44,238 bases of DNA, taken from Lachnospiraceae bacterium. GTDB taxonomy: Bacteria; Bacillota; Clostridia; Lachnospirales; Lachnospiraceae. The stretch is from contig JAKSPC010000014.1 of the NCBI GenBank assembly GCA_024405155.1, positions 1 to 44,238 on the forward strand, in the 5' to 3' direction. Positions 28,132 through 44,238 of this stretch are shown here, piece by piece. Position numbers and translations under genes: made by a program. Below the pieces are notes generated by a model that did no database searches, had not been told where the DNA came from, and was given only the letters and a program-made list of their open reading frames with translations. Position 1 is the first letter of the stretch. Every line of letters starts with the position of its first letter.

Positions 28132-28150
28132 TTCGAAAGGAGACATGGAC

Positions 28151-28708
28151 ATGATAAAAAAAGTGACAGCGCCTCTTACGAAGGAGCAGTTAAAGGATCT
28201 TCATTCCGGTGACGATGTTCTCATTACCGGCGTGATCTATACCGCCAGAGATGCCGCGCACAAAAGACTGTGCGAGCTTCTGGCTGAGGGAAAGGAACTT
28301 CCCTTTGATGTGAAGGATTCCATCATCTACTACGTAGGCCCCACCCCCGCAAAGGAAGGCCAGGCCATCGGCAGCGCCGGTCCCACCACCAGCTACCGCA
28401 TGGATGCCTACTCTCCCGCCATGATCGCCGCCGGCCAGACCGGCATGATCGGCAAGGGCAAAAGAGGTCCCGAGGTGATCGAAGCCATGAAACAGCACGG
28501 TGCCGTATACTTCGGCGCCATCGGCGGAGCCGGCGCTTATCTCTCCCGCTGCATTAAAAAAGCGGAAGTGGTCTGCTATGAAGACCTGGGAAGCGAAGCC
28601 GTACGCCGCCTGGAAGTGGTAGACTTCCCCGCGTTCGTCATCATTGATTCCGAAGGAAACAATCTGTACGAGACCGGAAGAAAAGCTTATCTGGATTCCG
28701 TTAAGTAA
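28151..28708 (+). CDS. Mesaconase / class I fumarate hydratase, beta subunit
   Basis: This roughly 185-residue subunit has [31 protein letters not shown], and [11 protein letters not shown], all typical of the fumarase C-terminal (beta) domain that shapes the active site with the iron-sulfur alpha subunit. An ATG at 28145 is only 2 bases from AAAGGAG; the ATG at 28151 has an 8-base spacing and I chose it. It begins 19 bases after the alpha subunit gene, giving an obligate pair. Confidence 0.9.
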
Positions 28709-28734
28709 ATTCAACATACAGAAAGGAACACATT

Positions 28735-29151
28735 ATGGAAAAGAAAAAGATCGTCATTGGTGTCATCGGCGCTGATGTACACGCAGTAGGAAACACGATC
28801 ATGAACCGTGCTCTTACCGACGCAGGTTTCGACGTGACCAATCTGGGCGTTCTGGTACCCCAGGAAGAGTTCATCGAAGCAGCCATCGAGACAGGTGCCG
28901 ACGCCATCCTCGTTTCCTCCCTTTACGGACAGGGCGAGATCGACTGCACCGGCTTCCGTCAGAAGTGCGATGAAGCTGGATTAAAGGGCATCCTCCTCTA
29001 TGCCGGCGGAAACCTGGTAGTAGGCAAGGTTCCGGCAGATGAGATCGAGCGCCGCTACAAGGAGCTTGGCTTCGACAGAGCCTTCCCGCCGGGAACCGAT
29101 CCCTCCGTAGACATTGAGTACCTTTACAGAGACCTGAACATGGAAGCATAA
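28735..29151 (+). CDS. glmS: Glutamate mutase sigma subunit (B12-binding)
   Basis: This 138-residue cobalamin-binding subunit has the D-V-H-A-V-G form of the D-x-H-x-x-G motif, with His16 as the lower axial cobalt ligand, then S-S-L-Y-G-Q-G and G-G-N-L-V-V-G. It works with GlmE to convert L-glutamate to (2S,3S)-3-methylaspartate by an adenosylcobalamin radical mechanism. Its length is normal. GlmL and GlmE follow directly, and the cobalamin adenosyltransferase lies further down the same operon. Confidence 0.95.
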
Positions 29152-29156
29152 GTCAC

Positions 29157-30593
29157 ATGAACACAGTATTACTGATCGATTTCGGAAGTACATACACCAA
29201 GGTGACGGCTGTCGATACCGTGAGCGAACAGGTGCTCGGCACCGCCCAGTCCTTTACCACCATCGAAACGGATATCATCGAGGGCCTCAACAACGCACTC
29301 GCCATCCTTTTCGAAAAGACCGGAAAACTGGAGATCAACGAGCAGTACGCCTGCTCTTCCGCTGCCGGAGGTCTTCGCATGGTGGCCATCGGCCTGGTAC
29401 CGGAGCTTACCGCAAAAGCGGCCAAGCAGGCATCCCTGGGCGCCGGCGCAAAGGTCATAAAGACTTTCGCCTACGAGCTCACCGAAGGTGACCTTAAGGA
29501 GATCGACCGCATCGATCCGGATATCTGCCTTCTTTCCGGAGGCACGGACGGCGGCAACCGGGAAAACATCATCTATAACGCAAGGATGCTTGCAAAAAGC
29601 ACGAAGAATTTCCCCATCATCATTGCGGGAAACCGGAGCGCGGCAGATGAATGCGCGGAGATCCTTAAGGAAAAACAGACCATCGTCTGTGAGAACGTCA
29701 TGCCCCGCCTGGACATCCCCAACGTGGGTCCCGTTCAGGAAGAGATCCGCAATCTGTTCTTAAAGCAGATCGTCAAGGCAAAAGGCCTTTCCGAAGCGGA
29801 AAACCTCATTAAGGGCATCCTGATGCCCACCCCCTCGGCCATGCTCACCGCCATGAAACTTCTGGCAAAGGGCACCAGGACCGAAGACGGCATCGGCGAT
29901 CTTCTGGGCGTTGACCTGGGAGGCGCCACTACGGATATCTACTCCATGGCCTTCGGATTCCCCACCACAGCAAACTGCGCGCTGAAGGGACTTCGCGAAG
30001 ATTACGCAAAGCGTACCGTGGAAGGCGACATCGGCATGCGCTACTCCATCCACGGCATCGTGGACGCGGCAGGTATCGCCCGGATCTGCGAACTCTCCGG
30101 TCTGGACGAAGACCGCGCAAAGGAGATCATCGATTACCTGGGCACCCACACCTACGTTCTTCCGAAAAACATCGTGGAAGACGGTTCGGAGAAGGAAGTC
30201 CTTCCCGGAACGGATTACACCATGGATGAGCTCTCTCACCTGGATTTCGCCCTGGCAGGCGCTGCCATCGAAGCAGCCGTCACCAGGCATGCCGGAAAGC
30301 TGGAGGAGTATTTCACTCCCTTAGGCGTAAGCTACATGCAGACCGGCAAGGACCTTACCAAGGTCACCAAGGTGATCGTCACCGGCGGAGCTCTCATCCA
30401 CACCACCCGAACGGCAGAGATCGCGTCCCACGCCTTCTTCTCTCCGCTCACACCCATGTCTCTTAAGCCAAAGCGCGGGGACATACTCGTAGACAGAAAA
30501 TATATCCTGGCGTCCATGGGACTTTTAAGCACCGTGTACCCGGATATCGCTCTCAGAATAATGAAAAAGGAGCTAATCAAAGATGAACCTTGA
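29157..30593 (+). CDS. glmL: Glutamate mutase-associated protein GlmL (MutL)
   Basis: This 478-residue protein is an ASKHA-fold ATPase with an N-terminal [12 protein letters not shown], a mid-protein D-L-G-G-A-T-T-D-I phosphate loop and V-T-G-G-A-L-I near the C-terminus. GlmL always sits between glmS and glmE; a chaperone or reactivase role for the mutase is generally proposed. It starts 5 bases after glmS and overlaps glmE by 11 bases. Do not confuse it with the DNA mismatch-repair protein MutL, which is unrelated. Confidence 0.93.
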
Positions 30594-32058
30594 GATCAGA
30601 AACAAGAAATGGTCAGACGATGAATTCCTGAAAGTGGAAAAGGAAGTCCTGGCCACCTGGCCCACCGGTAAAGACGTAAATCTTACCGAAGCGATCGACT
30701 ATCACAAAAGACTGCCGGATCACAAAGTATTCACCAAAAAGCTGAACAAGGCAAAGGCCGAGGGAAAGACCCTCATCCAGCCCAGAGCAGGTGTAGGTCT
30801 CATCGAGAACCACATCAAGCTCATGCAGCATCTGCAGGACTTCGGCGAGACCGATCTTCTGCCCACCACCATCGACTCCTATACCCGTCAGAACCAGTAT
30901 GAAAACTGCGCTGAGGGTATCCGTCGTGAGAAGGAAATGATGGCTTCCGGAAACTTCCATCCCCTTCTTAATGGCTTCCCCGCTGTTAACCACGGTATCG
31001 CCGGCTGCCGTCAGGTATGCGAATCCGTAGAGACTCCCCTGCAGATCCGTCACGGCACCCCCGACGCCAGACTTCTTGCCGAGATCACCCTGGCAGGCGG
31101 TTTCACCTCTTACGAGGGCGGCGGGATCTCCTACAACATTCCTTACGCAAAGAACATTCCGATCGAGCAGACCATGAAGGACTGGCAGTACGTTGACCGT
31201 CTGGTAGGCGTTTACGAAGCCAACGGCGTACCCATCAACCGTGAGCCCTACGGTCCCCTTACCGGAACGCTGGTTCCTCCCTGCCTTTCCCACGCCGTAG
31301 CCATCATCGAGGCTATCGTTGCCGCAGAGCAGGGCGTCAAGAACATCACCGTAGGTTACGGCCAGCTGGGCAACCTGATCCAGGACGTGGCAGCCATCCG
31401 CACGCTGGATGAGCTCACCAACGAGTATCTGCAGAAATTCGGATACAATGACGTAAACGTTACCACCGTTCTTCACGAGTGGATGGGCGGCTTCCCCGCA
31501 GACGAGGCAAAGGCTTTCGGTCTGATCGGCTGGGGCGCAGCTGCTGCTGCTCTTTCCAAGGCCACCAAGGTCATCGTAAAGAGCCCTCACGAAGCATACG
31601 GCGTACCCACCATGGAAGCGAACGCGGCAGGTCTGCGCTGCACCAAGCAGGTAGTCACCATGCTGCAGGAGCAGTCCATCCAGGGCCCCAGACTTCAGTC
31701 CGAAATGGCCATCATCAAGGCCGAGACCAGATGCATCCTTGACAAGTGCTTCGAGCTTGGCAAGGGCGACTGGTGCCAGGGTGCCATCGCCGGCATCAAT
31801 TCCGGTGTCATCGACATCCCGTTCGGTCCCGCAAAGTGCAACGCAGGTCTCATGCTTCCCGCACGTGACAATGACGGTGCCGTTCGTATCCTTAACACCG
31901 GCAACCTTCCCTTCACCGATGACTTAAAGAACTTCCACCACGACAAGCTGGCTCAGAGAGCAAAAGTGGAAGGCCGCGACGTTTCCTTCAACATGGTAGT
32001 TGACGACGTATACGCCGTAGGACTCGGTCACCTGGTAGGAAGACCCGGAATGAGATAA
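30583..32058 (+). CDS. glmE: Glutamate mutase epsilon subunit
   Basis: This 491-residue TIM-barrel subunit holds the glutamate-binding site of glutamate mutase. Family features visible here are the P-R-A-G-V-G segment, Q-I-R-H-G-T-P-D, the [14 protein letters not shown] loop and [10 protein letters not shown]. The usual length is about 483. AAAGGAG lies before the ATG, inside the end of glmL. It needs GlmS and adenosylcobalamin. Confidence 0.96.
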
Positions 32059-32093
32059 GTTAAAACATTTATTTTTATAAAGGAGAATTAATC

Positions 32094-33338
32094 ATGAAAA
32101 TCGTTGATCTTGTATGTGCTCCCGGCCGTACCGGTTTCTTCTTCGATGACCAGAAGGCCATCAAGATGGGTGCAAAGTCAAACGGTGCCGCTTACGTAGG
32201 CGCACCCGCAACTCCCGGATTCAAGTCCATCCGTCAGGCCGGCGAATCCATCTCCGTTCTTCTGGTCCTGGAAGACGGCCAGATCGCTCACGGCGACTGC
32301 GCAGCTGTTCAGTATTCAGGTGCCGGCGGACGTGATCCCCTGTTCCTTGCAGAGGAGTTCATCCCCGTGATCGAAAAGTACATCAAGCCCGCCATCGTTG
32401 GCAAGGAAGCCGACAACTTCAGACAGCTGGCAAAAGAGATGGAAGCCATCACCGTTGACGGCAAGAGACTTCACACCGCTATCCGCTACGGCGTTTCCCA
32501 GGCTCTTCTGGATGCCGTTGCAAAGGCTCACAAGAAGCTTATCTGCGAAGAGGTTGCTGACGAATACGGCCTTACCGTTTCCGAAGAAATGGTTCCGATC
32601 TTCACCCAGTCCGGCGACAACCGTTATGAGAACTCCGACAAGATGATCATGAAAGGCGCTCAGATCCTTCCCCACGCTCTGATCAACAACGTTGAGACCA
32701 AGCTTGGCAAGGACGGTTCCATCCTGAAGGAGTACGTTGCATGGCTTCGTGACCGTATCCAGGAGCTTCGTCCCACCGAGGACTACACCCCCATCATGCA
32801 CATCGACGTATACGGCACCATCGGCCAGGCATTCGGCGATGACAACTTCGTTGGCATGGCAGACTACATCGCAGACCTTGAGCAGATCGCAAAGCCATTC
32901 AAGCTTCGCATTGAGGGACCCATGGATGCAGGCGAGAGAGAAAAGCAGATGCTCTGCATGAAGGGCCTTCGTGAAGAAATGGACAAGAGAGGCATCAACG
33001 TTGAGCTGGTAGCTGACGAGTGGTGCAACACTCTGGAAGACGTTATCTACTTCTGCGACAACAAGGCAGGCCACATGGCTCAGATCAAAACTCCCGACCT
33101 TGGCGGAATCAACAACACCATCGAAGCAGTTCTGTACTGCAAAGAGCACGGTTTCGGCGCTTACCAGGGCGGTACCTGCAACGAGACCAACCGCAGCGCA
33201 GAAGTCTGCGTAGAGTGCGCAATGGCTACCAAGCCGGATCAGATCCTGGCAAAGCCCGGCATGGGCGTTGATGAAGGCTACATGATCGTTTACAACGAGA
33301 TGAGCCGTATCCTCGCTCTGCGCGCTGCAAAGCACTGA
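32094..33338 (+). CDS. mal: Methylaspartate ammonia-lyase
   Basis: This 414-residue enolase-superfamily enzyme removes ammonia from 3-methylaspartate to give mesaconate. It has the barrel motifs H-I-D-V-Y-G-T-I-G, R-I-E-G-P-M-D, V-A-D-E-W (metal ligands D/E) and the catalytic lysine 332 in Q-I-K-T-P-D-L-G-G (Lys331 in the classic clostridial enzyme). Its length matches the family (413). AAAGGAG precedes the start, 35 bases after glmE. A GC-rich hairpin and a structured repeat follow before the adenosyltransferase gene. Confidence 0.96.
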   Translation: MKIVDLVCAPGRTGFFFDDQKAIKMGAKSNGAAYVGAPATPGFKSIRQAGESISVLLVLEDGQIAHGDCAAVQYSGAGGRDPLFLAEEFIPVIEKYIKPAIVGKEADNFRQLAKEMEAITVDGKRLHTAIRYGVSQALLDAVAKAHKKLICEEVADEYGLTVSEEMVPIFTQSGDNRYENSDKMIMKGAQILPHALINNVETKLGKDGSILKEYVAWLRDRIQELRPTEDYTPIMHIDVYGTIGQAFGDDNFVGMADYIADLEQIAKPFKLRIEGPMDAGEREKQMLCMKGLREEMDKRGINVELVADEWCNTLEDVIYFCDNKAGHMAQIKTPDLGGINNTIEAVLYCKEHGFGAYQGGTCNETNRSAEVCVECAMATKPDQILAKPGMGVDEGYMIVYNEMSRILALRAAKH

Positions 33339-33351
33339 TCACCTGAAATAC

Positions 33352-33380
33352 GACCGGCGGTGCCCTGTGTATCGCCGGTC
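33352..33380 (+). terminator. Hairpin after methylaspartate ammonia-lyase
   Basis: GACCGGCG (33352-33359) pairs perfectly with CGCCGGTC (33373-33380). TTGTTG follows, a weak T tract, so it may be a partial terminator or an mRNA-stabilising stem rather than a full stop. Confidence 0.5.
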
Positions 33381-33390
33381 TTGTTGCACA

Positions 33391-33500
33391 GTTCTCCGGG
33401 TGGATTGCGAGCTGTGCGTGCTTCGCAGCGAGTTTCGCAGCGAAGCGAGAACTGTCCGAAGCTGCGAACACGCACCGAAGCATGGTACCGCCCGGAGAAC
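33391..33500. repeat. Structured intergenic repeat, copy 2
   Basis: GTTCTCCGGGTGG (33391-33403) pairs with CCGCCCGGAGAAC (33488-33500). Inside, GTGCGTGCTTCGCAGC pairs with GCTGCGAACACGCAC, and the core carries TTCGCAGCGA twice. Its ends, GGATTGCGA and GGTACCGCCCG, match copy 1 at 10582-10678, while the interior differs. Confidence 0.75.
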
Positions 33501-33520
33501 GTGGCATCATTGGAGGCAAG

Positions 33521-34063
33521 ATGGAGAAGGGTCTGATACAACTGTATTACGGCGACGGCAAAGGCAAAACAACAGCCGCCATGGGTTCGGTGCTGCGTGC
33601 CGTGGGACACGGTCTCAAGGTGCTGGTCTTTCAGTTCTTAAAAAGCCCGGACGGCAGCGGTGAAGTAAAGATCTTAAAGACGCTTCCCGGCGTGACCTAC
33701 ATGGACAACACCGTGGACGCTCCCTTCCTCTTCAACCTCACCCCCGAACAGCAGGAATATTTCGCCGATCTCTACCGCGCGCAGTTTCGTGAACTTTGCG
33801 ATAAGATCCGTTCCGGCGAATATGATGTGGTGGTCCTGGACGAGCTCCTGGACGCCTGCAACTTAGGGATCCTCCCCAAAGAAGACGTGTGCCGCATGAT
33901 GGAAGAAAAGCCTGCGTGCACCGAGCTGATCATCACCGGTCACAGATACGACGGCTGCGACATCTCGCCCTATATCGAGAGAGCCGATTACGTGACCAAT
34001 TGTAAGAAAGAAAAACACCCGTTCGACCGGGGCGAAGGCTGCCGCGACGGGATCGAACAATAA
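33521..34063 (+). CDS. Cob(I)alamin adenosyltransferase, CobA/BtuR type
   Basis: This 180-residue P-loop enzyme transfers adenosyl from ATP to cob(I)alamin. It has Y-Y-G-D-G-K-G-K-T-T (P-loop residues 11-17), V-V-V-L-D-E-L-L, and I-I-T-G-H-R-Y. A longer frame starts at 33482 inside the structured repeat, but GGAGG lies before the ATG at 33521, and conserved residues begin there. It is placed between the glutamate mutase/lyase genes and the citramalate lyase genes, so it probably supplies the mutase cofactor locally. Confidence 0.9.
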   Translation: MEKGLIQLYYGDGKGKTTAAMGSVLRAVGHGLKVLVFQFLKSPDGSGEVKILKTLPGVTYMDNTVDAPFLFNLTPEQQEYFADLYRAQFRELCDKIRSGEYDVVVLDELLDACNLGILPKEDVCRMMEEKPACTELIITGHRYDGCDISPYIERADYVTNCKKEKHPFDRGEGCRDGIEQ

Positions 34064-34082
34064 ATATCAAAGAGGTTTTTCT

Positions 34083-34349
34083 ATGGAGATCAAGAAATCT
34101 GCCACTGCGGGCACCATGGAATCCAGCGACGCATTCGTAATGGTTTCCCCCGCGGACGAGCTTATCACAGAGATAAACTCCGTGGTCTATACGCAGTACG
34201 GCAAAGCCATTGAGGCATGCGTGAAAGAAACGCTGGCGTCACTTGGCGTTACCAAAGGAAAAGTAGCAGTGACCGACAAGGGCGCCATTGACTGCGTCAT
34301 CGCGGCACGTGTCGAGACAGCGGTAAAACGCGCGGGAGGTGAAAACTGA
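34083..34349 (+). CDS. citD: Citramalate/citrate lyase acyl carrier protein, gamma subunit
   Basis: This 88-residue CitD homologue has an N-terminal A-T-A-G-T-M-E-S-S-D like the A-x-A-G-T-L-E-S-G-D of known CitD. Ser14 is the expected attachment site of the phosphoribosyl-dephospho-CoA arm. It carries the acetyl/citramalyl group between subunits. It lies downstream of mesaconase and glutamate mutase genes, so the substrate is expected to be citramalate, giving acetate and pyruvate. CitC, CitX and CitG, needed to build and acetylate the arm, are not in the window. Confidence 0.9.
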   Translation: MEIKKSATAGTMESSDAFVMVSPADELITEINSVVYTQYGKAIEACVKETLASLGVTKGKVAVTDKGAIDCVIAARVETAVKRAGGEN

Positions 34350-35221
34350 TGAGACGTTCCATGCTTTTTATTCCCGGCAACACCCCCAACCTTCTGATGA
34401 ACGGTGACATTCTGGGTGCCGATGCCGTGATCCTCGATCTGGAAGATGCCGTTTCTCCCGCAGAAAAGGACTCCGCCAGGATCCTTGTGAGAAATATTTT
34501 AAAGAACCTCCGTTACCAGGGCTGCGAGATCATCGTCCGCATCAATCCCGTGGACACGGATTTCTGGCAGAAGGACCTGGATGAGATCATCCCCTTAAAG
34601 CCGGATCTCATCATGCCGCCGAAGAGCTCCTCCGGCGACTATGTGCGCACCGTTTCCGACTACATCGGCAAGCTGGAGGAAAAGTGCGGGTTCGAAAAGA
34701 ACACCGTAAAGCTCATCCCCCTGATCGAGACGGCGCTCGGCGTGGAGAATGCTTATGACATCGCCTCCGCCTGCGACAGAGTGGCCGCCATCTTCCTGGG
34801 CGCCGAAGACCTTACCGCAGACCTTCGCTGCGTTCGTACCAAAGAGAGCCGGGAGATCCTGTATGCCCGTCAGAGACTGGTGACAGCAGCCAGAGCTGCC
34901 GAAGTGGACGTTTACGATACGCCTTTCACCGACGTTGACGATCTGGAAGGACTTGTGAAAGACGCGGAAACCGCAAAATCCATGGGCTTTACCGGCAAGG
35001 CTTCCATTTCCCCCCGTCACGTGGACGGCATCAACACAGTCTTCTCTCCCACCGAAAAAGAGATCGCCTATGCGCACGAAGTCATGGAGACCATTGAACG
35101 GGCAAAGAAAGAAGGCAAGGGCGTGGTCGCCCTTCGGGGAAAGATGATCGACGCTCCCATCGTGAACCGCGCAAAGCGCGTTCTGGAAATGGAAAAGGCT
35201 ATTTTCGGAGGTGAAGACTGA
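34349..35221 (+). CDS. citE: Citramalyl/citryl-ACP lyase, beta subunit
   Basis: This 290-residue TIM-barrel subunit has R-R-S-M-L-F-I-P-G-N-T-P, D-L-E-D-A-V, I-P-L-I-E-T-A-L-G-V and the F-L-G-A-E-D-L-T metal-site segment. It cleaves the acyl-ACP intermediate (citramalyl-ACP to acetyl-ACP and pyruvate in this setting). Its ATG overlaps the citD stop (TGATGA), and its own stop overlaps the citF start in the same way, so the three subunits are translationally coupled. Confidence 0.93.
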   Translation: MRRSMLFIPGNTPNLLMNGDILGADAVILDLEDAVSPAEKDSARILVRNILKNLRYQGCEIIVRINPVDTDFWQKDLDEIIPLKPDLIMPPKSSSGDYVRTVSDYIGKLEEKCGFEKNTVKLIPLIETALGVENAYDIASACDRVAAIFLGAEDLTADLRCVRTKESREILYARQRLVTAARAAEVDVYDTPFTDVDDLEGLVKDAETAKSMGFTGKASISPRHVDGINTVFSPTEKEIAYAHEVMETIERAKKEGKGVVALRGKMIDAPIVNRAKRVLEMEKAIFGGED

Positions 35222-36633
35222 TGAGCAAATTAGTGGAAAACATTGGCGAAGCCATCAGAAAAACAGGTCTTAAGGATGGAATGACCATCTCCTTCCATCA
35301 TCACATGAGAAACGGTGACCACGTTCTGAACATGGTCCTTGAGGAAGTGGCAAAGCAGGGGATCAAAGATATCACCGTTAATGCCAGTTCCATTTTCGAC
35401 GTGCACGAACCCATCATCGATCACATTAAAAACGGCGTAGTGACAGGCATCGAGTGCAACTACATGGGCAGCAAGGTAGGGCATGCCATCTGCGAAGGCA
35501 TCATGGAAAAGCCCGTGATCTTCCGCACCCACGGCGGACGTCCCTCCGACATGGAGAAAGGGACCAGCCACATCGACGTGGCCTTCATCGCGGCTCCCAC
35601 TTCCGACGATATGGGCAACTGCACCGGTAAGATCGGAAAAAGCGCCTGCGGTTCCATCGGCTACGCTTTCGCGGATGCCATGAATGCGGACAAGGTAGTC
35701 ATCGTTACCGACAACCTGGTGCCCTATCCCCTGACAGGCGCTTCCATTCCGGAGGTCTACGCAGACTATGTCGTTGCCGTAGACGAGATCGGCGATCCCA
35801 AGGGCATCGTTTCCGGTACTACGAAGATCACCCGTGATCCGGTGGGACTTCGCATGGCAGAGTATGCCGCCAGGGTCATCGATGCTTCAGGCCTCCTGAA
35901 AGAAGGCGTGTCCCTTCAGACCGGTGCCGGCGGCGCAACGCTGGCCGCTGCCAAATTCATCAAGGAGATCATGCTGGAACGCGGTATCGTGGGTTCCTTC
36001 GGCATGGGCGGCATCACCGCCTACATGGTAGACATGCTGGAAGCCGGCTGCTTCCGCTCCCTCATCGACGTGCAGTGCTTCGATCTGGACGCTGTCAGGA
36101 GCCTTCGTGACGATCCCCGCCACATGGAAGTTTCCGCCACCCAGTACGCCGGCGTTTCCGGAAAGAGCGCTGCCGTGGATTCTCTGGACGTGGTGCTTTT
36201 AGGCGCCACCCAGGTGGACGTGAACTTCAACGTAAACGTGCACACCGATTCCAACGGCTACATCATGGGCGGTTCCGGCGGACATTCCGATACGGCAGCC
36301 GGCTCCAAGCTTTGCATCATCATTGCTCCGCTCACCCGTGCCCGTCTTCCCCTGGTGGTGGACAGAGCGCTCACCATCTCCACTCCAGGCAAGGACGTGG
36401 ACGTGGTAGTGACCCAGCGAGGCATTGCCGTAAATACCAGGTACGGAAAGAATAAGGAACTGAAAGAAAAGCTCATCGCCGCACACCTTCCGGTCTGCGA
36501 GATCGAAGACCTTAAGAAGAAGGCAGAGGAGCTTTCCGGCGTCCCGGCATCACTTCCCCTTTCCGACCGTGTAGTGGCAAAAGTGCTCTACCGCGACGGT
36601 ACGGAGATCGATACCATCAAAGCCGTAAAGTAG
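35221..36633 (+). CDS. citF: Citramalate/citrate:ACP transferase, alpha subunit
   Basis: This 470-residue protein is the CoA-transferase-like alpha subunit, exchanging acetate on the carrier protein for citramalate. Visible features are S-F-H-H-H-M-R-N-G-D-H-V, R-T-H-G-G-R-P, L-Q-T-G-A-G-G-A-T-L and G-G-S-G-G-H-S-D-T-A. Enterobacterial CitF is about 510 residues; this one is some 40 shorter at the N-terminus. It is the last gene of the operon, which ends at tandem hairpins (36643-36835). The citramalate assignment is inferred from the operon. Confidence 0.93.
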   Translation: MSKLVENIGEAIRKTGLKDGMTISFHHHMRNGDHVLNMVLEEVAKQGIKDITVNASSIFDVHEPIIDHIKNGVVTGIECNYMGSKVGHAICEGIMEKPVIFRTHGGRPSDMEKGTSHIDVAFIAAPTSDDMGNCTGKIGKSACGSIGYAFADAMNADKVVIVTDNLVPYPLTGASIPEVYADYVVAVDEIGDPKGIVSGTTKITRDPVGLRMAEYAARVIDASGLLKEGVSLQTGAGGATLAAAKFIKEIMLERGIVGSFGMGGITAYMVDMLEAGCFRSLIDVQCFDLDAVRSLRDDPRHMEVSATQYAGVSGKSAAVDSLDVVLLGATQVDVNFNVNVHTDSNGYIMGGSGGHSDTAAGSKLCIIIAPLTRARLPLVVDRALTISTPGKDVDVVVTQRGIAVNTRYGKNKELKEKLIAAHLPVCEIEDLKKKAEELSGVPASLPLSDRVVAKVLYRDGTEIDTIKAVK

Positions 36634-36879: not shown

Positions 36880-38469
36880 TTATACATGGCTGCTATCATA
36901 AATGCTTCCCATGGACCATATCTTAAGATCTGAGATCTGCACTTCGCTTCCCATTGCCGTCAGACTGATCCCATCGCTGTCAGACCTTGAGGGATATACC
37001 ATCTGCATCACCACGTTCTGATGATTGGCAAACACTTCGATCATGCATTTGTCGATCACCACTCTCAGCTCCATCGTTCCGTCTTCATCAGCATCAAAAT
37101 ATGCCGTTTCCGGCACTCTGCCCCGCACGTCCGGACACAGAGAGGAAACCAGCGTGTCTATCGTTACGGCGTTGTGGGGGATCTTCGCGCCGACGGACAT
37201 GTAGATATTGATATCCGTGTATTCCGCCAGGTCGTCGCTTCTCAGCACCCGAAGCCGCAGCGCGCGGGCCTTTTTGAGATCCACCCTCATCTGAATGTCC
37301 AGTTTGTTTCCCCGGGCGGAAAGAACTTCCTCCGTAAACGGTTTCAGTGAAAGCTCACCGATCTCCGTTTCTTTCTCATGAAGGGAATCGACGGCTTCTG
37401 CCGGATCGATCCGGACCGTTCCCGAAGCACCGGGCGTCATATGATACATCAGACTGAAGGCGCCGTTTCGCGGCGGTACCTTCTTCGCGTCTTTCGTATT
37501 GAAGATCACGTACGCGCCGCCGTTTCCGTCGGACATGGCGCAGGGAGCCTGATAGCTGGAGCAGGCCCGCGGTCCGTGGTTGAACCGCATGGACCGTTCC
37601 GGATAGAACCTGTGTGTGTTTTTGTCAAATCCTCCCAGGGTCAGATAGGCACCGTCCAGGTGACTGAAGTTGAAGAGTGCGTACCCGTCTCCAAACGGAA
37701 CGAAATACGGACAGGCGCCGTCATTTCCTGCAGGGATCTGCGGAAATCCGCCCGGAGCAAGTTCGCCGATATAGGTCCAGTCCTTCAGATCTTTCGAAGT
37801 AAACATCTGTTCCACCATGATGTTTTTCGGATCTATGCCGCGCTTTTCCTGATCTCCGTAAAGACAGCCGGATAAGGAATAGTATCCCGTCTCGTCCTTC
37901 CACAGATACGGGTCGAACAGGCCGTAAGGACGGCCGCCGTTCGTTTCGGCATCCGGGAGGAGCGGGATCACCGGGTTTTTCGGCTCCTTTTCCCAATTGA
38001 GGAGCAGCGGGTCTTTTGCATACGCGATCATCGTCCCTTTCCATCGTCCGTGGTAGATGGCGACCACGCGGTCCTCTTCCACCAGCGTCGCCCCGCTGTA
38101 GCAGGCATACTCCAGGTCCGGATACAGCGCCAGCGGCAGGTCTTTCCAGTGGACCAGATCCGTACTGACGGCATGCCCCCAGTGAACACGGTGCGCGGAA
38201 TAGTCCGGATTCTCCTTCGGCGGAAACGCCTGATAAAAGATGTGATATCTGCCCTTCCAGAAACAGAGCCCGTTGGGATCGTTGATGATGCCGTCCGGGG
38301 AATAGTAATGAAAGACCGGATTCCACGGGCTGTCCTTGTATTTCTCCCGGTATTCCCGGTAGGCCTTCATCTGTGCGCTGGTCTTCAGTTTTTCCTTCTG
38401 TTCTTCCAGGTCTCCCTCAAAAATCTCCTTTTCGATGGAACTGGGTCGATATTCAATACAAGCTGGCAT
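36880..38469 (-). CDS. GH32-like two-domain protein with altered catalytic motifs
   Basis: This 529-residue protein has an N-terminal five-bladed propeller of glycoside hydrolase family 32 (fructan or sucrose hydrolases) and a C-terminal GH32C beta-sandwich (E-L-R-V-V-I-D-K-C-M-I-E-V-F-A-N). The nucleophile motif N-D-P-N-G (Asp64) is intact. The R-D-P motif reads F-D-P (Asp186 kept), and the E-C-P acid/base motif reads A-C-P (Ala252), so the expected general acid is missing. There is no signal peptide; a basic-acidic N-terminal extension of about 45 residues precedes the domain. GGAG lies before the ATG. It is separated from the glycyl-radical operon by repeat copy B, so a shared role is uncertain. 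Confidence 0.85.
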   Translation of the reverse strand: MPACIEYRPSSIEKEIFEGDLEEQKEKLKTSAQMKAYREYREKYKDSPWNPVFHYYSPDGIINDPNGLCFWKGRYHIFYQAFPPKENPDYSAHRVHWGHAVSTDLVHWKDLPLALYPDLEYACYSGATLVEEDRVVAIYHGRWKGTMIAYAKDPLLLNWEKEPKNPVIPLLPDAETNGGRPYGLFDPYLWKDETGYYSLSGCLYGDQEKRGIDPKNIMVEQMFTSKDLKDWTYIGELAPGGFPQIPAGNDGACPYFVPFGDGYALFNFSHLDGAYLTLGGFDKNTHRFYPERSMRFNHGPRACSSYQAPCAMSDGNGGAYVIFNTKDAKKVPPRNGAFSLMYHMTPGASGTVRIDPAEAVDSLHEKETEIGELSLKPFTEEVLSARGNKLDIQMRVDLKKARALRLRVLRSDDLAEYTDINIYMSVGAKIPHNAVTIDTLVSSLCPDVRGRVPETAYFDADEDGTMELRVVIDKCMIEVFANHQNVVMQMVYPSRSDSDGISLTAMGSEVQISDLKIWSMGSIYDSSHV

Positions 38470-38532
38470 CCCTGCTCTCCTTTATGCTTATGACCGTCAA
38501 GAAAAATAGAACAAATCTCACCTCAAAACCGG

Positions 38533-38797
38533 CATGTGAGCCTCTGAGCGGTTTGAGCCGTATCCGGCTCACATAAATGCTCAGAAAACTTTTGCCGATT
38601 TGGACCTCTGACGCCTTGACCCCCTCTCCGGCTCACATTGCTTCCGAAAAGTCTGCTGAAATTGTCGCAAAACAGTTTACATAACTTTCTGCATGTGAGC
38701 CTGTCGGCGCCAAACCACGTCAGCGGCTCACATCGCAGTTTTTTGCCTTTTTCAGCATGTGAGCTAAAATGGGCTTAAAGCGCTCTGCGGCTCACAT
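38533..38797. repeat. Dispersed element, copy B: four 42-bp CATGTGAGCC...GGCTCACAT units
   Basis: Units of exactly 42 bp begin at 38533, 38597, 38692 and 38756. The layout (64, 95, 64 bases between unit starts) repeats that of copy A (64, 94, 64), and the intervening sequence is clearly homologous. As in copy A, unit 2 has the degenerate left arm GATTTGGACC. It lies in the same orientation as copy A, between the GH32-like gene start and the kinase gene end. Confidence 0.88.
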
Positions 38798-38940
38798 CGC
38801 ATTCTTTTCCTTTGTAAAAGGAATCTCATGCGCTTGCGGCAGCGGGCGCGAGCAGAGCGAGCGGCCAGGCGGAGTTATGCAGACACGCAAGCCCGGAAAG
38901 GCAGCTGCTTACGCTTTCTCGCAGGCGGCTTTCCGGCTGA
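38798..38940 (-). terminator. GC-rich hairpins after the kinase gene
   Basis: CCGGAAAG (38893-38900) and CTTTCCGG (38929-38936) close a stem just past the kinase stop at 38941. A second, CTTGCG/CGCAAG, covers about 38833-38890. The minus-strand tract after them is not T-rich, so terminator strength is uncertain. Confidence 0.5.
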
Positions 38941-39693
38941 CTACAGACCGGACTCATGCAGGATCGAATACTCACCGCTGCTTTCCAGATACAGCATCAG
39001 GTCTGCAGGCATTGTATTCCGCAGACACATCCGCACATTATACATATCAGAGAAATCAACAAACTCTTCTGCGTCTTTTCGGGGGATCCCTGCACGTACT
39101 CTTCTGTCGATCAGCCTGGATCGAAGGAATTCCTGATCTGCCGAAATGCTGATCGTGTAATCGGCATACTTTGACAGATCTCTCCAGCCTTTCTCATTCA
39201 GAAGCAGATAGTTGCCTTCCAGGAGAACGATATCGGAATCCACGATCAGTGCATCTTCCACCGGGTCTTCTTTTATCCTGTCAAAATCAGGCCAGGTACC
39301 GGTTTTTCCTGCAGCAACTTCCCTGATCTTTCCTTCGAGTTTTTCAATATCAAACGTTTCCGGGCAACCTTTCACCTTTGCCATAAGGATTTCTTCTCCC
39401 TCGCGGAAAAGCGTATGGGTATCGAGATATGACTGGTACTTGTGGTATCCATCCATCCCCACCACTGTGATCTTCTCCATCCCCGGTATCCCGTCAGCCA
39501 TGCACGCCAGTACTTTTGTGAGAGTGCTCTTTCCTGCGGCAGGCGGTGCAGCCGCCATAACGAGTATCCGGCCGTTTTTCTGTTTCTGCAAAGCATCCAG
39601 CTTATGAAGAAGCGGCAGAAAGATCTCTTTCACATTCTGATCCGAGTATTTCGCCCGAACCGGCATGTTGTTTATCATCAGATCAAAAACCAA
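38941..39693 (-). CDS. P-loop nucleoside/sugar kinase-like protein
   Basis: This roughly 250-residue cytoplasmic kinase belongs to the uridine kinase/phosphoribulokinase/pantothenate kinase-like group. It has Walker A A-P-P-A-A-G-K-S-T-L, then V-G-M-D-G-Y-H, and V-L-L-E-G-N-Y-L-L-L. Relatives are annotated only as nucleoside/nucleotide kinase family protein. The frame extends to an ATG at 39750, deep inside the regulator gene. AAAGGAG precedes a TTG at 39693, which overlaps the regulator stop by 11 bases, so I chose the TTG; the ATG at 39678 is the alternative. As last gene of the glycyl-radical operon it may phosphorylate that pathway's substrate or product. Confidence 0.8.
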   Translation of the reverse strand: MVFDLMINNMPVRAKYSDQNVKEIFLPLLHKLDALQKQKNGRILVMAAAPPAAGKSTLTKVLACMADGIPGMEKITVVGMDGYHKYQSYLDTHTLFREGEEILMAKVKGCPETFDIEKLEGKIREVAAGKTGTWPDFDRIKEDPVEDALIVDSDIVLLEGNYLLLNEKGWRDLSKYADYTISISADQEFLRSRLIDRRVRAGIPRKDAEEFVDFSDMYNVRMCLRNTMPADLMLYLESSGEYSILHESGL

Positions 39694-40735
39694 ATCTACT
39701 GCTCTCCTTTCCTCTGCCGTCAATGAAATATACCTTAGGTTCCTGTACATGATTCATACTGTTTCGTTCTGCCAGACACGAAAGGATCCTTTTTGTCATT
39801 GATTCAAAATCCTGCTCCAATGAATAAATACCAAGATCATCAGCTTCGGGACAACGGTCAAACATGACCGCATGTCTTTTCACTCCCTTTGATCGGAAGT
39901 ATTTTTCCAAAACAGCGCCAAATTCGCCTATCGAATAAAGCACTCCGTCAGCCCCTTCCAGCTCATTCATGATTTCCTCCATCATCCTGTCCGGAAACCG
40001 CACATAACGATCGGAATACTTCCAGGGGATCCTGCAGATCCTGCCGTCCGGTTCCAATTCCCGGAAAAACTTCTCTCTTGCTGCTATATTTCCGATCCGC
40101 AGCTGTTCCCAGCCAACATATGCGATTTTCCGGCAGCCTGCTTTTTTCAGGATCTCATGCAGGCTCCGGATGGCATGCTTGTTATCGATGCATACGCAGT
40201 CTGCGTACGGGTTTTCCAGAGGGGAGTCAAAAAAAACCAGATTCATACCAAGTCCGGTCAGCTTTTTTAATTCGTGCGGGCAGATCTCCAGGTCTTCCGG
40301 CCAGATAACAACATTCCGGAAACCTTTTTCATAAATCTTAAAAAGGCAGTCACTCAGCGACGATCCATTTGCCGCCTGTTTATACATGACCAGGGAACCG
40401 CATTTTTCAGCTTCTGTCTGAAAAGCTCCCATGAATCTGGAGAAGAAATAATTCTCTGCAGGAGCCACAATGGTAATAACATCCATTTCCCGGTTTCGCG
40501 GGCCATAGTACAAAGACACTCTTGTGCCGCTTCCCTGCTGACGATCAACGATCTGTTCCTCTTCCAGAAGGTCTAATGCCTTACGCACGGTAACTCTGCT
40601 GACGCCCAGATCTTCTGCCAGTTTCCGTTCTGACGGAATATAATCGCCATCTGCATACACGTCATTATAGATCTGTCCGCATATATGCCGCCTGACCTTT
40701 AAATACAGTTTCTTCTGTTCAGCGCTTTCTGTCAT
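39683..40735 (-). CDS. GntR-family regulator with LacI-type sensor domain
   Basis: This 350-residue protein has a GntR winged helix at residues about 10-75 (Y-I-P-S-E-R-K-L-A-E-D-L-G-V-S-R-V-T-V-R-K-A) and a periplasmic-binding-protein-like effector domain after it, as in AraR. Such regulators bind a sugar or sugar phosphate and release DNA. Its start overlaps the glycyl radical enzyme stop by ATGA. The palindrome at 44057-44075, over the operon's -10 region, is the natural operator candidate, implying autoregulation and induction by the substrate of the pathway. Confidence 0.9.
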   Translation of the reverse strand: MTESAEQKKLYLKVRRHICGQIYNDVYADGDYIPSERKLAEDLGVSRVTVRKALDLLEEEQIVDRQQGSGTRVSLYYGPRNREMDVITIVAPAENYFFSRFMGAFQTEAEKCGSLVMYKQAANGSSLSDCLFKIYEKGFRNVVIWPEDLEICPHELKKLTGLGMNLVFFDSPLENPYADCVCIDNKHAIRSLHEILKKAGCRKIAYVGWEQLRIGNIAAREKFFRELEPDGRICRIPWKYSDRYVRFPDRMMEEIMNELEGADGVLYSIGEFGAVLEKYFRSKGVKRHAVMFDRCPEADDLGIYSLEQDFESMTKRILSCLAERNSMNHVQEPKVYFIDGRGKESSRFGF

Positions 40736-43119
40736 TCTTTCATCTCCGTAGATGCAGGATCCAGTCTTTTGATGATATCTTCCTGGATCTCCGGAGATAA
40801 GTCAAGAAAATTCACAAAAGTCCCGTGGATACGAACGATATAGACGCCGCTCGGAGCATACTTTTTGGGGTCCGCCAGAACTTTTCTCAGCATTTCCTGC
40901 GTTGTCACATTCATATACAGGTAAAACGGCGACACATCCTTATCGTCAATCGCATTAAAGAACAAAGGAGTAAAGATCTTATTCTTAAACTCCATTCCCT
41001 TTTCTTCCGTTGTATTCCCCTTAAAATATCCCGGATCGATCCCGAAATGGGAAGCGTATCCGCCGCACATAGTGCAGAAGGGAAGGTTCCTGTTGGAGAG
41101 CATCCTCATGCCGATACCGCCGGAGGCATCTCCGAACAGCGGATCAACGCCATAATTCAGCATTTCTCTTGCCTTTCTTCCGTCGGGAGTCGCTCCCACC
41201 CAGTATCCGTACATGAGATGCGTTGATGGTGTGGAGTAATCCGGCCGGAATGGATTTCCCAGATAGTTCTTCTTTGATGCAACGATTTTTGATACTCTGT
41301 ACGCGAGGTCAGCGGCTTCCCTGTCAACTTTCGGGATATTATTTCCGTATTTGTCACAACTTGCCAGATACTGCCGCATCTCCTCATCATGTTCGAAGTT
41401 ATCCATAAGGGCACAAAGCATCCTGTCGGCATCACCCGGTCTTTCGGCAAGAAGCGTATCGATGGCAATAAAGGAATCTGCCAGAACGGTCAGTCCATGG
41501 ATCAGGCAGCCGCTGCCGTTGTACCTGGTCCCCTGAACTTTTGTATCACGCATATCTATGCCGCTTTCCATTCCTCCCATCATTGTGGAAAGGAAGGGGA
41601 CCTGATACAGGCTCAATGCCGCGGAAGCACGATTTGCGGCCTTCACCATGTGGTCAACATACCCATCCAGTTCACGATAAAAGATCTCCCGGATATTCTT
41701 CAGAAGTTCCTTAGGCTCCCTGACTCCCAGTTCCTCGTAAGTTTTTCCGATCTGTTCCCCGCTGATCTCGGACTTCCCTCCCTGCAGCACCAGCTCCAGC
41801 ACTTTAGGAAGATTGAGCCAGCTGTTTGTGGTATTTCCGTTGTCTTTTCCCATGATCAGCGGTTCCTGGCACCCTGCGACCGAATAATCCGGAAGGTCTT
41901 CCTCCTCTACGCCGTTTGCCGCAAGAACCTGAAACAGTGCATCGTCATTGAACAGCGAAGGCGTAAGTACTCCGGGAGTAAAAAAGAATCTTCCAAGTTC
42001 CCGGTACAATACGTCAGGCGTATTCTTGTGCAGCTTCACAGAGAGAATGGGCTGCGGCAGATTCATGTCGAAATACGCATCCAGAAGCGCAAACGATGCC
42101 GGGTCTGTTAAATCGTTTCCTTTTGTATCCCGGCCGCCGATAAGAATATTTTGAGAAATTGCCCAGCTTCTGTCCGCCACATTAAAAAATACCAGAAGAT
42201 GCTTGAACAGAGATGCCGCATCCGTCCTGTCAGCCTTGGAAGCTGCCATATACGGAGCGAAGATCCGATCCGCGTTTCCTACGGAAAAAGCGTACGGATT
42301 CGGTGTCTGCTCCAGACACATGCATTGCCAGATCAGAATAAACGCCTGTATTGCCTCATAAAGATCCTCTGCACCGTGGGCCGGTACTTTTTTCAATGTC
42401 TCTGCCAGGAGCAGGAATCTATCCCTGGCTTTTCCTTCTGCGGCTTCTGCCTTCTTTAACGCAAGATCTCTGTATCTCTCCGACAAAACCAGAAGATTCT
42501 TTGCCGAAATGATCATTGCATCGTAGTAATCCTTCTTTTCCGCGGAAGCACTTTGCTTTTTGCTTTCCAGCTCACAGATCATGTGATCCACACCATATTT
42601 CAGATACTTTCGAACATCCGGGATCACATGGCCTGTCACCTGTTCAATAAAGAACACAGCTTCTTTCGTGTACTTTTCTGCCGGTTTGTATGCCGACGTC
42701 AACGCTTTCGCAAACTGATTTCTGCTGTAGTATGCCTTTACTTTCTCAATCCGCTCCCCGGTAATGTCTCCATAAGGCTCAATATCCCCAAAAACAGCAA
42801 CCGGATCACAGTAACCTGCGAAAGATGACACTTTGAAACCGGGGTTGATAAGAGCGTATGAACGGGCGAACGCATCGTCCTGCGTTCCCGCAAATACATG
42901 ATAGTCCCCCAAAGAAAGCGGGATCCGCTTAAGGATCTCCGTGTTCATTTTCGCGATCCGGATACAGTCGGACAGATCCCTGAACTTCTCGTCGCACTCC
43001 ATGGCGATCTCGCGGGCATAAAACCATCCTGTCAGGTGGTCCAGGCTCCGTTCTTCCTGAAATCTTTTTTTTGCCAGTTCGGTGATCTCGTCAGCCGAAT
43101 AAAGTTCATGAATTCTCAT
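40732..43119 (-). CDS. Glycyl radical enzyme of unknown substrate
   Basis: This 795-residue protein is a member of the pyruvate formate-lyase/dehydratase superfamily. The thiyl-radical loop is V-A-G-C-Q-E-P, Cys417 with Glu419, the C-x-E pattern of the lyase and dehydratase branch (diol dehydratases, choline lyase, isethionate lyase) and not the C-C pair of pyruvate formate-lyase. The glycyl radical loop near the C-terminus reads V-R-I-H-G-T-F (Gly766), whereas R-V-S/A-G-Y/F is usual. Its length is normal. AGGAAG lies before the ATG. The activase is 49 bases upstream and the regulator overlaps downstream. No shell-protein gene is visible, so it is probably cytosolic and not in a microcompartment. 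The substrate cannot be named from sequence. Confidence 0.9.
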   Translation of the reverse strand: MRIHELYSADEITELAKKRFQEERSLDHLTGWFYAREIAMECDEKFRDLSDCIRIAKMNTEILKRIPLSLGDYHVFAGTQDDAFARSYALINPGFKVSSFAGYCDPVAVFGDIEPYGDITGERIEKVKAYYSRNQFAKALTSAYKPAEKYTKEAVFFIEQVTGHVIPDVRKYLKYGVDHMICELESKKQSASAEKKDYYDAMIISAKNLLVLSERYRDLALKKAEAAEGKARDRFLLLAETLKKVPAHGAEDLYEAIQAFILIWQCMCLEQTPNPYAFSVGNADRIFAPYMAASKADRTDAASLFKHLLVFFNVADRSWAISQNILIGGRDTKGNDLTDPASFALLDAYFDMNLPQPILSVKLHKNTPDVLYRELGRFFFTPGVLTPSLFNDDALFQVLAANGVEEEDLPDYSVAGCQEPLIMGKDNGNTTNSWLNLPKVLELVLQGGKSEISGEQIGKTYEELGVREPKELLKNIREIFYRELDGYVDHMVKAANRASAALSLYQVPFLSTMMGGMESGIDMRDTKVQGTRYNGSGCLIHGLTVLADSFIAIDTLLAERPGDADRMLCALMDNFEHDEEMRQYLASCDKYGNNIPKVDREAADLAYRVSKIVASKKNYLGNPFRPDYSTPSTHLMYGYWVGATPDGRKAREMLNYGVDPLFGDASGGIGMRMLSNRNLPFCTMCGGYASHFGIDPGYFKGNTTEEKGMEFKNKIFTPLFFNAIDDKDVSPFYLYMNVTTQEMLRKVLADPKKYAPSGVYIVRIHGTFVNFLDLSPEIQEDIIKRLDPASTEMKE

Positions 43120-43168
43120 TTTTCCACTTCCTATGATTTTAATAAAGATGATACGCTGCGCGTCATGA

Positions 43169-44041
43169 TCAGGTATGAATACAGGTAAATCCGTTTTCTG
43201 TCATTGTTTTTTCAAAGAAATCAACTGTTTCCTTTGGTATTTTTTGGGCAGGCATTTTATATGCAAGACCGCATTGTTCCCATTTTGCTTTTCCAAACTC
43301 GTGATACGGCAGGAATTCGATTTTTATGTTGTCTCTGCAGACATGCTGACGTATGAAGGAAACAAATCCGGACGCATCTTCTTTTCCGGCATTGAAACCG
43401 GGGATCAAAGGGACTCTTATCAGGACATTTTCGGTTGCTTCCGTTGCCTTCTGCAGGACCTTTCCCGTAACGGAATTCGAAACGCCAACCCACTTTTTAT
43501 GAACTTCCGCGTCGTAATGCTTTACGTCGATGATCCAGTGATCGACAAACGGGATCAGTTCTGCCAGACCGATATTGGAACCATTCGTCTCTACTGCACA
43601 ACTGATCGACGATTGTTTCAGCCGTTTCAGCAGCTCACCAACTGCTTCCAGCTGAACGGAGATCTCACCGCCGGTCAATGTCACCCCGCCGTTATCAAAA
43701 TACAGGGGTTTTGACCTCTCACACTCAGCTGCGATATCATCGATTTCATATTCTCTGCAGGAAAGTCTGATCCCCCTCTGCCTGTTTCCTGTCACACAGC
43801 CTTTTTCTTCACATACACTGCATAAGCTGCGGTCCAGTGTACCGTCTCTGACTGCCCCCTTTTCGCAGCAGCCTTCATATAACCATTCTTTATCTGTCAT
43901 CAGTATTCCGCCCGGTTCTAAACCTTCCGGATTGGAACACCACGGACATCTCATGTTGCATCCCTGCAAATGAAATACAAGACGGTTCCCGGGACCATCC
44001 TGCGAATAATTAAACCCCTTTTGAAAGATCTTCAACTTCAT
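43169..44041 (-). CDS. Glycyl-radical enzyme activating protein (radical SAM)
   Basis: This 290-residue radical SAM enzyme makes the glycyl radical on its partner. The cluster motif is C-N-M-R-C-P-W-C (Cys28, Cys32, Cys35), with G-G-E-I-S for SAM binding and the D-V-K-H segment later. Residues about 55-95 form a cysteine-bearing insert (Cys58, 59, 74, 77, 82, 95), where most activases carry a ferredoxin-like domain with two CxxCxxCxxxC sets; here the set is irregular. It is the first gene of the operon, followed by the glycyl radical enzyme after 49 bases. Confidence 0.92.
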   Translation of the reverse strand: MKLKIFQKGFNYSQDGPGNRLVFHLQGCNMRCPWCSNPEGLEPGGILMTDKEWLYEGCCEKGAVRDGTLDRSLCSVCEEKGCVTGNRQRGIRLSCREYEIDDIAAECERSKPLYFDNGGVTLTGGEISVQLEAVGELLKRLKQSSISCAVETNGSNIGLAELIPFVDHWIIDVKHYDAEVHKKWVGVSNSVTGKVLQKATEATENVLIRVPLIPGFNAGKEDASGFVSFIRQHVCRDNIKIEFLPYHEFGKAKWEQCGLAYKMPAQKIPKETVDFFEKTMTENGFTCIHT

Positions 44042-44056
44042 TGATTATTCTTAATT

Positions 44057-44075
44057 GGTATTATATATAGATACC
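44057..44075 (-). promoter_or_regulatory. Operator and -10 region of the glycyl-radical operon
   Basis: GGTATTATATATAGATACC is a 19-bp palindrome with one mismatched pair, 16 bases upstream of the activase ATG. Read on the minus strand it contains TATAAT (44065-44060), so a bound repressor would cover the -10 box. The GntR/LacI-type protein at 39683-40735 is the likely ligand. No clear -35 box is seen. Confidence 0.6.
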
Positions 44076-44238
44076 ATTTGTGAATAAAAAAAAGAGACTG
44101 CAAATACTTTATACAGAATGAAAGAAAATCTGTCAAGTAGATCCCATTCACGTCCAATAGAACAAATCACATCTCAAAAACGGCCTTCACTTGCAAAACT
44201 AAATTCCACCCCAGAAAACGAAAAAGTGGATTTTACTT
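44076..44238. other. Right-edge intergenic stretch
   Basis: No gene is visible. AATAGAACAAATC followed by CTCAAAA and CGGC (44156-44186) matches the flank of repeat copy B (38504-38533). AAATTCCAC (44202-44210) could pair with GTGGATTT (44227-44234) as the terminator of a gene beyond the window. Confidence 0.45.

Follow-up and report, generated by a model that had tools for sequence, protein, structure and literature searches.

A discrete glycyl radical enzyme family with a divergent glycine loop, encoded beside a kinase in a Lachnospiraceae operon and likely to act on a sugar or polyol

What does a glycyl radical enzyme (GRE) act on when it is encoded with an activase, a regulator bearing a putative sugar-type sensor and a kinase? 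This question is raised by a contig of a Lachnospiraceae bacterium. The analysed window (44,238 bases) is one entire contig of a 2.03-Mb genome that is 93% complete, so that genes beyond position 44238 could not be read. The last 5 kb of the window hold four minus-strand genes in the order activase, GRE, GntR-type regulator and kinase, with the following features.

44056..44076: palindromic operator TGGTAT-N9-ATACCA, TGGTATTATATATAGATACCA, 14 bases upstream of the activase start codon, 0 mismatches
43169..44041, minus strand: radical SAM activase, 290 aa (TIGR02494, PF04055, CNMRCPWC motif)
40732..43119, minus strand: GRE, 795 aa, of a discrete family of predicted eliminases
41863..41871, minus strand: Cys loop C417-Q418-E419, the CxE eliminase motif (CQE in 89/89 rows)
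40816..40833, minus strand: Gly loop R763-I-H-G766-T-F, with G766 the presumed radical glycine (89/89 rows)
39683..40735, minus strand: regulator, 350 aa, with a GntR-type DNA-binding domain (PF00392) and a putative LacI/RbsR-like sensor
38941..39693 (TTG start) or 38941..39750 (ATG start), minus strand: P-loop kinase, PRK09270/FrcK type (NF006745)

An earlier note, made from the letters of the window, had described four packed minus-strand genes behind a palindrome, separated by a 49-base gap and then a 4-base ATGA overlap, and the open reading frame coordinates agreed with it on all of these points. Its 11-base overlap between kinase and regulator holds from the TTG start at 39693 but becomes 68 bases from the first ATG. 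The sister genome G311 encodes a kinase of 68% identity, one of whose internal Met residues lined up by eye with the TTG start. The four genes and their conserved palindrome form a genuine operon. Elsewhere in the window, the plus strand at 27292-36633 carries genes that by eye resemble a methylaspartate-type glutamate fermentation set: two hydro-lyase subunits, parts of a B12-dependent mutase, a methylaspartate ammonia-lyase-like gene, and the alpha and beta subunits of a citrate/citramalate lyase.

The GRE had been called an orphan, a label that had to be dropped, as relatives were found encoded in 204 genome stretches (tblastn, E 1e-3). The best 80 of the 204 (here the related loci, with L numbers) were 59-78% identical; many of their hosts are gut or rumen Clostridia, one is labelled Propionivibrio, and the cultured ones include Blautia schinkii, Faecalicatena contorta, Extibacter muris and Claveliimonas bilis, among others. 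Within the same taxonomic family, 15 of 299 genomes carry a GRE that is at least 59% identical (two in pieces), and the next matches below the GRE family in these genomes are at 32-33%; judged by these identities the family is discrete. Mean column identity was 73% among 50 aligned members. A tree built by a quick method from 89 family rows of at least 700 residues (88 different, L073 and L153 being the same) and six outgroups united the family rows with support 100 and placed the window GRE in a starred clade of 20 rows, nine of them labelled Lachnospiraceae and 13 having the FGGY-type kinase K4. YbiW and PflD fell outside the family, in an outgroup part that is unreliable because it has branches of length 10 and long outgroup rows.

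No characterised member of the family was found, nor was any publication on it in the open-licence literature, a scope that gives no proof of absence. Among the matches listed, solved PFL-type GREs were about 16-24% identical to the window GRE, and the closest structures by both E and Z were propanediol and glycerol dehydratases. Matches to the NCBIfam equivalogs HypD, CutC, HpsG, HpfG, IAD, HPAD and PFL were all far under the cut-offs (HypD, 171 of 1100 bits; CutC, 132 of 1050). Low identity and these cut-offs together rule out close kinship with a characterised GRE. The earlier note had itself named tight clustering with a known GRE as the outcome that would count against it; with no solved GRE listed above 24% identity, this comparison came out in its favour. 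The gut contains many abundant GREs to which no function has been assigned (PMC11574389).

The window GRE has a PFL-like fold with its catalytic Cys in a CxE Cys loop, C417-Q-E419, as expected from its earlier description as a C-x-E enzyme. CxE is given as the eliminase motif of GREs in excerpts of PMC7077986 and PMC8473560, and the motif would imply C-O elimination chemistry here. G766, R763, C417 and E419 were invariant in 50/50 aligned members, and both the CQE and RIHGTF loops were present in 89/89 family rows. Six other GREs that were compared have RVxG[YF] in the Gly loop, as against RIHGTF in the family. The Pfam model Gly_radical (PF01228) gave no match at E 10 in the last 156 residues of the window GRE or in the GREs of L054, L076 and L064 (4/4 members tested), while it does match YbiW, PflD and the divergent GRE of L187. 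Because RIHGTF occurs in 89/89 rows and PF01228 fails in 4/4 members, the aligned loop is a family-wide departure and not a local error. The same departure from RVxG[YF] and the same PF01228 failure could be read as marks of a pseudoenzyme that no longer bears a glycyl radical; the invariant G766, R763, C417 and E419, the loops kept in every row and an activase homologue at 75/80 related loci all speak against this, and we consider it very improbable. If active, a family with an invariant RIHGTF loop would widen the presumed requirements around the glycyl radical.

The activase itself scored 190 bits against TIGR02494 (cut-off 174), also matched PF04055, and has the cluster motif CNMRCPWC (C-x3-C-x2-C); the above-cut-off score and the homologue at 75/80 loci bear out its assignment as a dedicated activase for the GRE.

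A second divergent GRE family was seen at L186 (8821-11031), L187 (8621-10822) and L185, with a Cys loop GCHWM that lacks CxE and a Gly loop RVTGF. At L186 and L187 its neighbours are an activase-like gene, a cupin-like protein of 258-261 aa and a PMI-like protein, and L187 has in addition two Gfo/Idh-like genes and a sugar-isomerase-like gene (by eye).

The regulator had been proposed to join a GntR domain to a LacI-type sensor. The GntR part was confirmed (PF00392, 64 bits); the sensor matched weakly, the C-terminal part giving hits to the NCBIfam models UriR (2e-6) and RbsR (1e-5), both far below cut-off, with Pfam Peripla_BP_1 at E 0.07. The predicted palindromic operator was found, without a mismatch, at 44056-44076. 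When up to two mismatches were allowed, the window had 4 matches to the pattern, compared with a mean of 0.64 in 100 shuffles, none of which had 4. Relatives of the regulator occur at 33/80 related loci (that of L035 is a 50-residue piece), and the exact operator TGGTAT-N9-ATACCA was present at 27 of these 33 compared with 0 of the 47 regulator-less loci (Fisher 7e-16). For the 23-base form TTGGTAT-N9-ATACCAA, the genome's only site at up to one mismatch is 44055-44077, with one mismatch. Among 24 genomes, 18 have one exact site each, 17 of these lying at the GRE operon by coordinates; in genome G259 the exact site and the GRE are on different contigs, and on the GRE contig (L026) the shorter operator motif precedes a GDSL-type gene. 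The same search at up to one mismatch in the 24 genomes revealed no apparent wider regulon that would expose a transporter, and the extra one-mismatch sites look like background, since a reversed-pattern control matched in 8 of the 24.

At L044, L047, L052 and L054 the operator stands directly ahead of a xylulokinase gene (at L046 it overlaps the chosen start of the reading frame), and therefore the unit there is XylB-activase-GRE-regulator. Because the operator lies between them and the xylulokinase gene, the upstream ABC and dehydrogenase genes of L047 and L054 look like separate units. We regard the GntR/LacI-type protein as a local operon regulator that would bind the palindrome and act by repression. 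The family has cultured hosts, a compact set of genes and, in many of these hosts, a regulator with a single clear operator, which makes a direct search for the substrate feasible through growth and induction experiments.

The P-loop kinase was also as predicted, being of the PRK09270/FrcK type (NF006745, 283 bits, cut-off 228), with 3c8u, named 'Fructokinase', as its best solved match (E 9e-20). No match to this kinase type was found at the 80 related loci, and in G311, a genome searched with no GRE match, the kinase stands apart from any GRE; it was therefore ruled out as a family-wide partner. Relatives exchange the kinase type, using two FGGY types or a ROK kinase where the window has the FrcK-like enzyme. 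FGGY-type kinases are in the same gene run in 55/78 operons (K4 in 42, XylB8 in 12), L031 and L066 being left out of the 80 loci because the choice of reading frames gave no GRE frame there, and a ROK kinase follows the GRE in L078 and L095. In a 341-genome class sample, K4 (E 1e-40 or better) was found in 13 of the 14 GRE-positive genomes compared with 16 of 327 others, the fourteenth being the present genome. XylB-type kinases (12/78 operons) fit a ketose better than mannose, and XylB accepts 1-deoxyxylulose.

Other neighbours in relatives point to mannose and fructose. A PMI-like protein is found in 21/78 operons and, at 50% identity or more, in 8/14 GRE-positive genomes of the class sample compared with 1/327 others, the class-sample count leaving out G577 (30% identity); in G411 it is on a different contig from the GRE. 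L173 encodes a D-lyxose/D-mannose isomerase type and L028 a D-mannose-isomerase type (NCBIfam matches below the equivalog cut-off in both), and L078 has an isomerase of the same Pfam family as that of L173 (Pfam D-lyxose isomerase). Mannose/fructose-type enzymes thus substitute for one another in the relatives. L077 encodes a D-psicose 3-epimerase, positioned upstream of the operator there. GH38 genes accompany at least 6 of 92 operons (the 78 loci plus the window and the class-sample loci), five inside the gene run and one, at L078, near but outside it, where 0.46 would be expected for 8-kb stretches on a background of 49 places in 27 genomes, fragments included; the GH38 label of L090 comes from clustering with L089, which is close in the tree. 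Fructose-6-phosphate aldolase (FSA) is a neighbour at 8/80 loci, and these proteins share Gln59 and Tyr131, residues with a known functional meaning in FSA, with the two E. coli enzymes FsaA and FsaB; a ninth, more distant FSA-type neighbour (L162) is without the FsaA/FsaB residues at 59 and 131. Of the 78 operons, 4 include FSA in their gene run, 6 a Zn dehydrogenase and 3 an aldo-keto reductase. Neighbour counts that do not come from clustering are minima, because 20 proteins were scanned with Pfam and 20 with NCBIfam. The earlier note had seen no aldolase or transporter in the window; some relatives have an aldolase, ABC transporters and isomerases near the operon.

Several further arrangements were observed. 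A DUF2961 protein (PF11175) sits between GRE and K4 at L164 (8790-9863), and K4-type kinases adjoin DUF2961-like proteins (by eye) at L175 (1289-2335) and L179 (3922-4959) with no GRE nearby. A long frame at L166 (6334-9729) fuses a GH38 alpha-mannosidase to an aldo-keto reductase domain. Uroporphyrinogen-decarboxylase-like genes recur (by eye) at L078 (6250-9244 and 13989-15152), L158 (10984-12051) and L181 (12446-13507).

The GRE family was absent from the 24 other genomes of the genus, so that only the present genome among 25 carries it; one of the others has a different GRE, at 29% identity. GC3 was 0.48-0.55 in the four operon genes, compared with 0.655-0.76 in eight other genes measured. 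The low GC3 and the absence from the 24 other genomes suggest horizontal transfer, and the whole four-gene operon was probably acquired from another bacterium. The kinase probably arrived with it, as low GC3 is common to kinase and GRE (0.54), whereas the adjoining GH32 gene has 0.66. This GH32 gene (36880-38469) was rejected as an operon member: it is 471 bases away, its GC3 lies outside the operon's 0.48-0.55, and a relative was found at 1/80 loci. Between it and the kinase, at 38530-38800, there are repeated hairpin-like units, ATGTGAGC...GCTCACAT.

These findings support the earlier suggestion that the substrate is probably a sugar or a polyol, and likewise the view that no characterised pathway fits in full. 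The reading that we prefer, at a probability of roughly 0.4, is that the GRE is a radical C-O eliminase acting on an unphosphorylated carbohydrate and that the sugar so formed is trapped by a kinase of its own. This sugar would most likely be one of the hexoses in the mannose/fructose series, as the isomerases and GH38 among the relatives' neighbours indicate. The activase would install a radical on G766, from which it would pass to C417; the thiyl radical would abstract hydrogen from an alcohol carbon of the carbohydrate, E419 would take the hydroxyl proton, and the adjacent C-O bond (of a glycoside, an ether or a ring oxygen) would cleave. The sugar product would then be phosphorylated by the co-encoded kinase (FrcK-like in the window, FGGY or ROK in relatives), with a mannose-type isomerase added in some relatives, while the GntR/LacI-type protein would sit on the palindrome before the activase and let go on sensing the sugar. 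In relatives, the sugar importers encoded close to the operon are ABC transporters, which makes it more likely that the GRE acts first and the kinase second.

A simple route by way of free mannose and class I mannose-6-phosphate isomerase is not supported for the present genome: no model match to that enzyme was found in the genome, at 93% completeness, or in 6 of 26 other GRE genomes, so free mannose would need another route. The eight class-sample genomes whose PMI-like protein is at least 50% identical each encode a ManA above the cut-off as well, and the extra PMI-like copy may therefore have a substrate other than mannose-6-phosphate. A more novel reading, in which the GRE is a radical glycoside (or ether) lyase with a new Gly-loop type that frees mannose from a conjugate by C-O elimination and turns the departing aglycone into an aldehyde or ketone, seems to us rather improbable; if it were true, the aglycone aldehyde or ketone would serve as an electron sink and elimination would replace hydrolysis.

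A doubtful alternative is anhydroglycolysis without a PTS, with the kinase taking the place of the E. coli PTS. A free 1,5-anhydrohexitol, either anhydroglucitol or anhydromannitol, would be ring-opened by the GRE; the kinase would convert the resulting 1-deoxyketose to its 6-phosphate, and FSA would cleave this to hydroxyacetone and glyceraldehyde-3-phosphate, a step known for FSA. Ketose-type kinases fit this route, ybiW and pflD genes lie near fsaA and fsaB, and FSA is a neighbour at 8/80 loci; moreover, YbiW and PflD yield 1-deoxyfructose-6-phosphate from anhydrosugar 6-phosphates, as stated in part of PMC12441222. Yet FSA shares the gene run in only 4/78 operons, and 9 of 27 GRE genomes, the present one included, gave no FSA/TalC-like match at E 1e-10, which rules out FSA as a general requirement. 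The route also leaves the PMI-like, mannose-isomerase-type and GH38 neighbours unexplained, and identity to YbiW and PflD is 19-24%. With neither a class I mannose-6-phosphate isomerase nor an FSA-like gene seen in the genome, neither simple pathway closes; as the results oppose both the simple mannose route and anhydroglycolysis, we commit ourselves to the reaction class and the likeliest hexose series.

It is unlikely that the GRE is instead a polyol dehydratase serving as an electron sink, turning a free polyol into a deoxy-ketose or deoxy-aldose, in the manner of glycerol and propanediol dehydratases, for a kinase or dehydrogenase to handle. The best-matching solved structures listed, and the Zn dehydrogenases and aldo-keto reductases in some gene runs, agree with such a role. 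However, where glycerol dehydratase has His281, Ser282 and Asp447, residues with roles in that enzyme, the window GRE aligns Phe276, Ala277 and Thr431, although His164 and the CxE Glu are retained, and the dehydrogenase genes of L047 and L054 look like units separate from the operon. The reverse order of reaction, in which an ABC-imported sugar is phosphorylated before the GRE cleaves the sugar phosphate, would match the use of phosphates by the known sugar-type GREs YbiW and PflD (PMC12441222, in part) and the frequency of a kinase as GRE partner. We think this order improbable, as the free-sugar isomerase types of L028, L078 and L173 would be easier to place after the GRE.

Among known systems, the B12-independent glycerol/1,2-propanediol dehydratases (1r8w, 5i2g, 9rco) resemble the window GRE in fold, CxE motif, activase and best fold scores, and differ in identity (23-24%), in the Gly loop and at positions 281, 282 and 447; they are not known to have a kinase partner. 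Sugar repressors that are GntR/LacI chimeras, AraR of Bacillus subtilis among them, join a GntR DNA-binding part to a LacI-like sensor, a layout that the regulator described here would share, and this regulator has its own palindrome, TGGTAT-N9-ATACCA. FrcK-like/PRK09270 kinases (3c8u) are matched above the NF006745 cut-off, the family name being generic and the substrate predicted. YbiW and PflD, as described in section 5.1 of PMC12441222, open the rings of 1,5-anhydroglucitol- and 1,5-anhydromannitol-6-phosphate to 1-deoxyfructose-6-phosphate after PTS import. They share with the present family the CxE motif, a sugar-type metabolism, FSA neighbours in some relatives, and a conserved His that aligns with one of PflD in the segment TPSTH/TVSAH; they differ in identity (19-24%), in the PTS there as against a separate kinase here, and in that no FSA-like match was found in the present genome. 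The GRE family may work like YbiW and PflD, although by sequence it does not belong with them.
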